Of a stretch of DNA of 33,857 nucleotides, positions 18,348 through 26,061 are shown piece after piece. This DNA comes from Actinomycetota bacterium (GTDB lineage: Bacteria > Actinomycetota > Actinomycetes > Actinomycetales > Microbacteriaceae). Below the pieces are notes generated by a model. That model saw nothing but the letters and a program-made list of their open reading frames with translations. It ran no database searches and was not told where the DNA came from. Where the stretch lies: NCBI GenBank assembly GCA_030840335.1, contig JAUZFR010000061.1, positions 1 through 33,857 on the forward strand, given 5' to 3'. Each line of letters begins with the position of its first letter. The first letter of the stretch is position 1. The position numbers and the translations under genes are program-made.

Positions 18348-18365
18348 TGGTTGTTCCTTTCGGCG

Positions 18366-18387
18366 AAGTGTCCGCTATATGACACTT
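18366..18387 (-). promoter_or_regulatory. Perfect inverted repeat in the rpoA leader
   Basis: A 7-bp stem AAGTGTC/GACACTT with an 8-nt AT-rich loop ends 5 nt before the rpoA Shine-Dalgarno. It could be an RNA hairpin adjusting rpoA translation or a DNA operator. The loop contains TATA, but no convincing -35 was found. Confidence 0.4.
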
Positions 18388-18452: not shown

Positions 18453-18505
18453 CGCTCCCTGAGCGTGTCGAAGGGTTTTGGCCACTTCGACAAACTCAGT
18501 GAGCG
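18453..18505. repeat. REP-like palindromic element between rpsK and rpoA
   Basis: Two arms (18453-18475 and 18482-18505) form an imperfect inverted repeat built on CTGAG..TGTCGAAG, with a 6-nt centre. I recall this motif as a dispersed repeat in Microbacteriaceae genomes. It lies inside the transcribed block, so it will form a long hairpin in the mRNA between rpsK and rpoA. No T-run follows in the direction of transcription. Confidence 0.7.
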
Positions 18506-20879: not shown

Positions 20880-21490
20880 TAGTTGGTGGCCGTCGCAGTG
20901 TCCGACGTGTTCGCGACGATGCCGCGCTCCGCGAGTGATTCTGCGATACGGCCAGCGACTTCCTCCACGTCACCGAGGGCATCGATCTGGATGACGAGGC
21001 CGCGCTGCTTGTACACGTCGATCAGGGGAGCGGTTTCGCGCTGATAGAGCGACTGGCGGTATCGGATCGTCTCTTCGGTATCGTCAGAGCGACCCTCTTC
21101 GTGCGCGCGCTTCAGAAGGCGGGACACGACTTCGTCCGGATCCACGATGAGCTGGATCACCGCGTCAAGGGACTTGCCCTCGGCGCTCAGCATGGCGTCG
21201 AGGAATGCCAGCTGGTCGAGCGTGCGCGGGTAGCCATCGAGCAGGAATCCTCGCTGGCAATCATCCTCTTTGAGCCTGCTCGCAACCAGTTCGTTCGTGA
21301 GCGAATCCGGAACGAAGTCGCCGGCGTCGATGATCGCCGACACCTTCTTGCCGAGTTCGGTCTTGTTCTTGATGTTCGCGCGGAAAATGTCGCCTGTAGC
21401 GATCGCCGGAATGTCGAAGAGGAGGCTGATGCGGGCCGCCTGGGTTCCCTTACCGGCGCCGGGGGGACCGACGATAAGGAGCCGGGTCAA
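20879..21490 (-). CDS. adk: Adenylate kinase
   Basis: A 203-residue kinase catalysing ATP + AMP = 2 ADP. The P-loop is GPPGAGKGT at 8-16; ATGDIFR binds AMP, and [11 protein letters not shown] is the family signature. The lid (about 126-140) is the short form without zinc cysteines. The start is TTG at 21490-21488, overlapping the secY stop (TTGA), with GAGGG about 8 nt upstream. The frame is open far into secY, but that extension is only a shadow. Confidence 0.96.
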
Positions 21491-22827
21491 CGGAGCAGAC
21501 CCTCGTAGTGGCGCTGCTGAAGCTGCGAATCGATCTGCTTGACCGTCTCGAGTCCGACACCGACGACGATGAGGATGCTCGTGCCACCGAACGGGAAGTT
21601 CTGTGTCGCGCCGACCCACGCCAGTGCCGCGAGCGGAACGAGAGCGATCAAACCGAGGTACAACGAGCCTGGAAGCGTAATGCGCGTGAGCACGTAGTCG
21701 AGGTACTCGGCAGTCGGACGCCCGGCACGGATACCGGGGATGAACCCACCGTACTTCTTCATGTTGTCGGCGACCTCTTCGGGGTTGAAGGTGATCGCGA
21801 CATAGAAGTAGGTGAACCCGACAATGAGCAGGAAGTACAACAGCATGTAGAGCGGGCCATCGCCCTTGGTCAGGTTGTCGGTGATCCACTGAACCCAGGG
21901 TGCAACGATCGCGGCCTTGCCGGTCGCGCCGGACTTCGGCTGGTTGAACTGGGCGATCAGGGCCGGCAGGTAGAGCAGGGACGAGGCGAAGATGACGGGC
22001 ACGACGCCAGCCATGTTCACCTTGATCGGGATGTACGTGTTGTTGCCGCCATAGGTGCGGCGACCCACCATCCGTTTCGCGTACTGCACAGGGATTCTTC
22101 GCTGCGACTGTTCGACGAAGACGACAGCGCCCATGATCAGGATGCCGACCGCAATGACGAGAACGAAGATCGGGAAGCCCTTTGAATCGTTGATGCTGCC
22201 GAGGGCGGACGGGAAGCGAGCCGCGATCGACGTGAAGATCAGGATCGACATTCCGTTGCCGATGCCGCGCTCGGTGACGAGCTCGCCCATCCACATGATG
22301 ATTCCGGTTCCGGCCGTCATGGTGATGACCATGAGCAGGATCGAGTACCAGGAGTCATCGGTGATCAGCTCCGAGCACTCCGGAGTGCCGGAACTCGTGC
22401 CGAACAGCGCGCCGCTGCGAGCGACCGTGATCAGCGTGGTCGACTGCAGGATGCCGAGACCGATGGTCAGGTAGCGGGTGTACTGCGTGAGCTTCGCCTG
22501 GCCGGACTGGCCCTCTTTGTACAGGGTGTCGAAGTGCGGGATGACGACGCGCAGCAGTTGCACGATGATCGAGGCCGTGATGTACGGCATGATCCCCAGC
22601 GCAAAGATCGACAGCTGGAGCAGTGCTCCACCGCTGAAGAGGTTGACGAGCTCATACAGGCCGGACGTGTTGGAGTTGGCCTGAAGACAGGTCTGGACGT
22701 GCCCGAAGTCGACGAACGGCGCCGGGATGAATGACCCGAGGCGGAACAGCGCAATGATGAGGAGCGTGAACCCGATCTTCCTGCGAAGGTCAGGCGTGCG
22801 AAAGATTCGCGCGACAGCTCTAAACAC
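21487..22827 (-). CDS. secY: Protein translocase subunit SecY
   Basis: A 446-residue, ten-helix channel protein of the Sec translocon. The N-terminus [22 protein letters not shown] leads into helix 1; [31 protein letters not shown] and [13 protein letters not shown] are typical. The start is GTG at 22827-22825 with a strong AGGAGG 5 nt upstream. A 95-bp gap with two hairpins separates it from rplO, perhaps to lower secY expression relative to the ribosomal genes. Confidence 0.98.
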
Positions 22828-22861
22828 AAAGGCCTCCTGCTATTTCGTTCTTATTGCGGAT

Positions 22862-22894
22862 GAAGTGGAGCCCCCGGTTCGGGAGCCCCACTTC
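22862..22894 (-). promoter_or_regulatory. Strong RNA hairpin between rplO and secY
   Basis: In the secY-sense transcript the arms 22894-22880 and 22876-22862 form 15 continuous pairs, two of them G-U, around a 3-nt loop. On the opposite strand those two positions would be A-C mismatches, so the structure is selected, if at all, as RNA of the ribosomal operon. There is no T-run, so it is more likely a processing, stability or attenuation site than a full terminator. A smaller hairpin (22908-22923, 5-bp stem, T-rich loop) abuts the rplO stop. Confidence 0.6.
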
Positions 22895-22922
22895 ACTACG
22901 CGAGAGTGTCGCCAAAAAGCGA

Positions 22923-23708
22923 CTATTTGACGGAGCCGCCCGCTGCGACGATCTTCTGCTCGGCTGAGCCGGAGACCTTGTCGACAGCAACGTTTAGCTT
23001 AACCGCAATATCGCCATTGCCAAGAACCTTGACCTTCTCGTTGTTGCGCACGGCACCCTTCGCGACGAGGTCAGCAATTGTGACCTCACCACCCTTGGGG
23101 TACAGCTCGGCAAGCTTTTCGAGGTTGACGACCTGGTACTCGACGCGGAACGGGTTCTTGAACCCGCGCAGCTTCGGCGAACGCATGACGAAGTTCAGGT
23201 TGCCGCCTTCGAGGCCGGCCTTGACCTGGTAGCGCGCCTTGGTGCCCTTGGTTCCACGACCCGCAGTCTTACCCTTGGATCCTTCACCACGACCCACACG
23301 GGTTTTGGCCTTCTTGGATCCGGCAGCGGGACGGAGGTGGTGAACCTTCAGAACCTGCGGACGCGCGACGACATCGGCCTTCGGCGCAGCCTTCTTCGGT
23401 GTTGCCTTCTTGGCGGGGGCCTTGGCAGTCGACGTCGAAGCGGCAGCAGCCTTTTCGTCGGTCGAAGCCTTTGGCGCGGTCGCCTTGGGAGCAGCAGCCT
23501 TCGCGGCAGGAGCCTTCGCGGCAGGAGCCTTGTCGGCGGCAGCAGCCTTCGGAGCTGCAGCCTTGGCCGGAGCCTTGGTCGCAGCAGCCTTGGCGGCTGG
23601 AGCCTTCTTCTCGGCGGCGGCCTTGGGAGCTGCAGCCTTGGTCGCAGCAGCCTTCGGGGCAGCAGCCTTAGCGGCTGGCTTCTTTGCTGGAGTGGTTTCT
23701 TCGGCCAT
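22923..23708 (-). CDS. rplO: 50S ribosomal protein L15 with long Lys/Ala/Pro-rich N-terminal tail
   Basis: A 261-residue protein. Residues about 113-261 are a complete L15 ([37 protein letters not shown] region to IVAAGGSVK). Residues 1-112 are an added tail of KAAAPKA, KAPAAK and TKAPAK repeats, like the basic tails of histone H1 or mycobacterial HupB; usual L15 is about 150 residues. No ATG or GTG lies at the start of the core, and the long start has GGAG about 8 nt upstream and overlaps the rpmD stop, so the tail is translated. It could bind rRNA or DNA, or be cleaved after synthesis. Its role is unknown. Confidence 0.96.
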
Positions 23709-25977: not shown

Positions 25978-26061
25978 GGTTTCGACATCCATTACATGAA
26001 TGCCGACCTTGCCGATCGGTGTTACTACGGTGTTACTTCGGTGGTTGAGCTTGTCGAAACC
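25978..26061. repeat. Inverted and tandem repeats in the rplE-rpsH gap
   Basis: GGTTTCGACA (25978-25987) and TGTCGAAACC (26052-26061) are perfect inverted copies flanking 64 bp. The right arm extends to a fuller TTGAGC..TGTCGAAACC form (26045-26061) that I recall as a dispersed repeat in this family. Between them CGGTGTTACT occurs twice (26017-26026, 26028-26037). The right arm abuts the rplE stop. The gap has room for no S14 gene and no coding sequence was seen in it. Confidence 0.65.

Follow-up and report, generated by a model that had tools for sequence, protein, structure and literature searches.

What does a very stable hairpin that lacks a T-run do between two co-directional genes of a ribosomal-protein cluster? 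The question is raised by the minus strand of the window (the whole stretch of 33,857 nucleotides analysed here, from an actinomycetal bacterium of the family Microbacteriaceae), which according to the ORF list carries such a cluster from rpsJ to rplQ. The genes on either side of the hairpin are rplO, encoding ribosomal protein L15 (22923..23708, minus strand; taken from the ORF list and located in relatives by tblastn), and secY (21487..22827, minus strand; taken from the ORF list, with relatives from genome searches), which has a GTG start, with adk and map downstream of it. Between the end of the rplO ORF at 22923 and the secY GTG at 22827 lie 95 nt. An AGGAGG motif at 22833..22838 (minus strand), the likely Shine-Dalgarno sequence of secY, is located outside the hairpin and is retained in four same-genus gaps. 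The best 80 named SecY relatives belong mostly to the Microbacteriaceae. L15 is usually close to 150 residues long; the ORF of 261 amino acids found here has a long N-terminal extension rich in Ala, Lys and Pro (about 23375-23708, minus strand), which is seemingly common to relatives, the conserved core beginning a median of 302 nt past rpmD in 83 genomes.

The original prediction placed a 15-bp hairpin at 22862-22894, and both these coordinates and the sequence are correct. All 15 of the 15 positions pair in the minus-strand RNA, including two G-U pairs, around a 3-nt loop, and one U-A plus one more G-U pair extend the stem to 17 bp, giving a main hairpin at 22860..22896 (minus strand) that is defined by the fold and by covariation in relatives. 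Folding of the whole gap adds a basal extension of 3 bp (GCG/CGC; 22856..22901, minus strand) and a small hairpin of 6 bp around a UUUU loop, whose first base is also the final base of the rplO stop (22908..22923, minus strand). The 40-mer containing the 17-bp stem has a folding energy of -30.3 kcal/mol at 37°C (z -6.6), and none of 200 shuffles was equally stable. The opposite strand is indeed weaker, with -28.7 kcal/mol (z -4.1) for the antisense 61-mer vs -35.0 kcal/mol (z -6.5) for the sense one, although for either strand 0/200 shuffles were as stable. The claimed absence of a T-run also holds, as the 8 nt past the 17-bp stem contain a single U. A canonical intrinsic terminator was therefore rejected for the window, since the stem is GC-rich and stable but the U-tract is missing; the hairpin is absent from the 19 terminator-like sites returned by a terminator scan. 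A known Rfam RNA, such as a ribosomal-protein leader or attenuator, was likewise rejected, as the hairpin matched no covariance model up to E 5.

We analysed 83 rplO-secY gaps (80 named genomes, the window and two same-genus genomes) using a strand-neutral inverted-repeat search in which every mismatch is penalised equally. The stems contained 35 G-T departures, which pair in the sense RNA, against 8 A-C departures, which pair in the antisense RNA (p=4e-5, an optimistic value because the sequences are related). Counted per stem over the 68 distinct stems, weak ones included, the balance was 24 vs 2 in favour of sense, with 42 ties. The fold itself behaves in the same way: for 58 distinct hairpins of score at least 24, the sense fold was the more stable in 43 and the antisense fold in 12, with 3 equal, and 13 of 34 four-base loops are GNRA whereas none of the 34 is the reverse complement of GNRA. 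The prediction had taken the wobble asymmetry of the window stem as a sign of selection; the argument gains significance over the relatives, but the two wobbles of a single stem prove little. For comparison, a 300-kb portion of a same-genus genome, with home-made gene calls, gave hairpin wobbles (sense vs antisense) of 8/8 in convergent, 20/9 in co-directional and 7/10 in divergent gaps.

Covariation among relatives, a check that had been suggested for this stem, points in the same direction. In seven hand-picked relatives 94.5% of the cells in the 13-pair core are paired, and double changes occur at 6 of the 13 core pairs, a number reached by 24/500 shuffles. The covariation score was 0.473 vs a shuffled mean of 0.309 (0/500 as high) and a maximum of 0.253 for slid partners, in an alignment from which the structure had also been predicted. 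A Leifsonia-like set (n=8) gave three double-change pairs, a number reached by 37/500 shuffles, and a covariation score reached by 8/500. The most divergent same-genus gap, L112, was misplaced in alignment A2, and alignment A4 omits it and adds four hand-picked relatives; by eye, L112 has a hairpin with a different stem. The sense-wobble bias and the double changes therefore argue for selection of an RNA structure in the operon sense, the sequence of which turns over. Together with the stability of the sense fold in 43/58 stems, this makes RNA-level selection well supported and upholds the view of the hairpin as a selected RNA structure and not a DNA palindrome.

To describe its distribution, we used a family set of about one genome per genus (40 searched per gene and 30 loci read for each). 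Hairpins of score at least 27 are present in 22/30 rplO-secY gaps (shuffles 11/600), leaving 8/30 without a strong hairpin, and in 22/30 rpsK-rpoA gaps (shuffles 9/600). The sole length-comparable control, map-infA, which comes from only 11 of the 30 map loci, has them in 2/11 gaps (shuffles 6/220). None was found in 32 rpsM-rpsK and 29 rpoA-rplQ gaps, which have low median lengths of 44 and 49 nt, nor in the 10 adk-map gaps that reach 30 nt; a genome may be counted twice in the rows for rpsM-rpsK, secY-adk and adk-map. Among the nearest relatives an adk-map hairpin of score at least 24 occurs in 6/64; in this set the rpmD-rplO and infA-rpsM gaps are artefacts (of a shortened query region and an intervening gene, respectively), and L083 was omitted, its rplO stop not being located. 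Strong hairpins are not unique to the ribosomal cluster, since in a same-genus genome 16 of the 95 other co-directional gaps also carry one of score at least 30. Convergent gaps of that genome have a hairpin in 13/19, with a score of at least 30 in 9. T-rich tails are uncommon in the family, 12/64 hairpins being followed by 4 or more T within 8 nt and 52/64 by fewer.

Beyond the family, 120 wide regions of the order and class were drawn from two overlapping sets of 89 and 88 genomes, and 116 gaps remained after exclusion of L157, L190 and L233 (rplO not within 1.2 kb) and L222 (gap above 450 nt). A hairpin of score at least 21 is present in 105 of these 116 rplO-secY gaps. The counts for gaps outside the family omit L114-L118, which belong to it. 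These gaps are longer (about 203 nt vs a median of 103.5 nt in the clade of the window), and their hairpins are stop-proximal in 62/100 long gaps vs 23.8 expected, are followed by a U-rich tail (at least 4 T in 8 nt) in 21 of the 86 best hairpins, and show 63 G-T vs 10 A-C departures (best hairpins, 86 of 111 gaps). Motifs resembling a -10 element number 53 in the 12467 nt located 3' of the best hairpin and 3 in the 2353 nt located 5' of it; over all 116 gaps there are 80 in sense, 24 in the reversed control and 16 in antisense. The outside-family order of hairpin, putative promoter and secY thus reads as one transcription unit ending and the next one starting.

From sequence, the hairpin, its selection at the RNA level and its recurrence at the rplO-secY junction can be considered established. 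For its role we propose, with about even confidence, that it is a leaky, U-less boundary at which the ribosomal-protein transcript is set apart from secY-adk-map. Once rplO has been transcribed, the nascent RNA would form this very stable stem-loop, 26 nt beyond the stop codon, and the stem-loop would pause or partly release the polymerase without a U-tract, perhaps aided by Rho or NusG. The hairpin would also block 3' exonucleases and thereby let a stable rplO-ended message build up, and only part of the transcripts would read through into secY-adk-map, whose products may be needed less than ribosomal proteins. The block would be leaky in the window because no clear secY promoter is seen in the gap, where a sigma-70-type scan found none, and pairing would be kept while the sequence varies freely because mainly stem stability counts. 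Operon-internal partial terminators tune neighbouring genes, and the window hairpin resembles them in separating two genes of the same direction whose required levels probably differ. It shares with canonical intrinsic terminators a GC-rich stem-loop after a stop codon and the existence of U-rich versions at the same junction outside the family, and differs from them in its missing U-tract.

The closest precedent comes from Term-seq of Streptomyces clavuligerus, the main text of which describes RNA 3' ends at stable U-lacking hairpins (HS-U-lack TEPs) and likens them to the I-shaped terminators of GC-rich bacteria (PMC8269248). Operon-internal read-through is there highest at weakly structured ends, lower at U-lacking hairpins and lowest at U-rich hairpins (PMC8269248). 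The threshold for an HS-U-lack hairpin is below -23 kcal/mol per 40 nt, set at 30°C (PMC8269248); the window hairpin has -30.3 kcal/mol at 37°C, 1 U in 8 nt (limit <3) and a distance of 26 nt past the stop (limit 50). The likeness thus extends to a GC-rich hairpin soon after a stop codon, fewer than three U in 8 nt and co-directional genes (PMC8269248; PMC12288462). The HS-U-lack TEPs differ in being mapped RNA 3' ends, whereas the window hairpin is a predicted structure, and it concerns another gene pair in another family. For mycobacteria, a review states that termination occurs at U-less hairpins lying no more than 50 bp from stop codons, and a title in its reference list makes the opposite claim, that the mycobacterial polymerase needs a U-tract (PMC12288462). 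Termination at U-less hairpins is therefore contested, and a role as a 3' stabiliser or processing site is possible.

The roles named in the original prediction (processing site, 3' stabiliser or partial attenuator) are all candidates; the post-stop placement and the U-rich versions outside the family would favour a 3'-end or partial-termination role. The recurrence of the hairpin at this junction across the class and before rpoA, and the alternative of a secY leader, go beyond that prediction. The proposed boundary is further supported by the convergent gaps of the same-genus genome, where hairpins are rarely T-tailed (at least 4 T after 2/21, with tails counted in the plus reading only). Against it stand the missing U-tract, the 8/30 family gaps without a strong hairpin and the similar hairpins in 16/95 other co-directional gaps, as well as the observation that among the nearest relatives hairpin position is tied more closely to secY than to rplO, which is unnecessary for a terminator.

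This last observation fits a secY leader, the main rival of the boundary reading. Here the stem would sit close to or at the start of a secY transcript that arises by processing or from a weak promoter within the gap, and it would protect the 5' end or keep upstream RNA from pairing with the ribosome-binding site. Stem-loops at the 5' terminus are known to protect mRNAs such as E. coli ompA; the window hairpin is similar in being stable and upstream of an exposed ribosome-binding site, and dissimilar in that rplO is transcribed towards it from upstream. In 31 of 50 nearest-relative gaps of at least 100 nt (11.4 expected), the distance from the hairpin end to the secY start is 22-36 nt, and the wobbles of these secY-proximal hairpins are sense-biased (56 vs 14). 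A stop-proximal hairpin is found in 23 of the same 50 long gaps (15.6 expected), and 15 have both positions. In same-genus gaps the distance to rplO is variable and that to secY nearly constant. Some longer gaps (L006, L014, L020, L035, L041, L050, L053 and L061) have a -10-like TAGAGT or TAAAGT just 5' of the secY-proximal hairpin or at its base, and a promoter with its transcript start at the hairpin is possible in loci of this type; six of the eight also carry a stop-proximal hairpin. The position effect is, however, missing from the one-per-genus family set (5/20 vs 3.6 expected) and from outside the family (22/100 vs 29.9 expected, with unbiased wobbles, 36 vs 38). The window gap is not among the 17 -10-like matches of the 83 family gaps (17 sense, 7 reversed), the looser TANNNT shows no enrichment (38 sense, 41 reversed), and in Leifsonia-like relatives the TAAAG stretch is also paired within the basal stem. 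Tethering to secY was accordingly rejected as a family-wide rule, being present in the nearest relatives and absent at about one genome per genus; the secY leader thus stays in contention for this clade but not as a family rule, and for the window we hold it to be rather unlikely. A literature search for transcription-start-site data in the family found no paper.

An element acting purely in stability or processing, which would protect the ribosomal message at a 3' end left by an RNase cut within the gap and involve no termination, would agree with the missing U-tract, with the scarcity of T-rich tails (at most 3 T in 8 nt for 52/64 family hairpins) and with a selection that apparently concerns only stability. 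The U-tailed hairpins at the same junction outside the family (21/86) resemble terminators and argue against this explanation, which we consider unlikely. A chance or relic hairpin devoid of present function could account for the 8/30 family gaps that have no strong hairpin, but is highly improbable given the 0/200 equally stable shuffles, the 22/30 gaps vs 11/600 shuffles and the compensated changes. A DNA palindrome or mobile repeat with no RNA role is scarcely credible, for although the element is an inverted repeat and Cryobacterium relatives have a longer-looped palindrome, TCGAGCTTGTCGA, in this gap, the hairpin sequence has one match in its own assembly (88.2% complete), its arm pattern has 20 matches vs 53 in a reversed control, and the wobble asymmetry and compensated stem changes speak for RNA. 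A REP-like dispersed repeat was rejected on the single copy in this incomplete assembly and on pattern matches below control.

Other palindromes of the cluster share the core TTCGACA(A/C)GCTC and look like a candidate dispersed repeat; they are located at 18453-18505 in the rpsK-rpoA gap and at 26043-26061 in the rpsH-rplE gap (minus strand), and the palindrome upstream of secY in Cryobacterium relatives is similar to them. The rpsK-rpoA gap also contains a leader hairpin at 18366-18387 (minus strand) with a 7-bp stem and an 8-nt loop, AUAU(A/G)GCG, followed by GAAAGG at 18356-18361. This rpoA leader hairpin is present in 30/30 family rpsK-rpoA gaps, and in 18 aligned gaps double changes affect 6 of its 7 pairs (0/500 shuffles). 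Among 148 genomes of the class, 23 contain its pattern (reversed control 0), and of the 25 places the 10 that were read all lie 33-35 nt upstream of rpoA. It has no Rfam match up to E 5 and is possibly the binding site of a regulatory protein.

Judged from titles and abstract openings, none of the openly licensed papers found in literature searches deals with this junction in actinobacteria, and secY is unmentioned in the main text of the S. clavuligerus study (PMC8269248). The kind of signal is already known, and the more interesting part is its recurrence before secY and rpoA. We tentatively suggest that in actinomycetes hairpins selected for stability alone, with freely replaceable sequence, just before these two non-ribosomal genes of the conserved cluster form a class-wide rule that may set the levels of translocase and RNA polymerase relative to ribosomes, to which the clade of the window may add a secY-leader role. 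If the boundary reading is true, the hairpin marks the point at which secY-adk-map, and perhaps rpoA, are uncoupled in actinobacteria from one of the most highly expressed clusters, and the junction would provide a recurrent, easily mutated site at which to test transcript ending by U-less hairpins in GC-rich bacteria.
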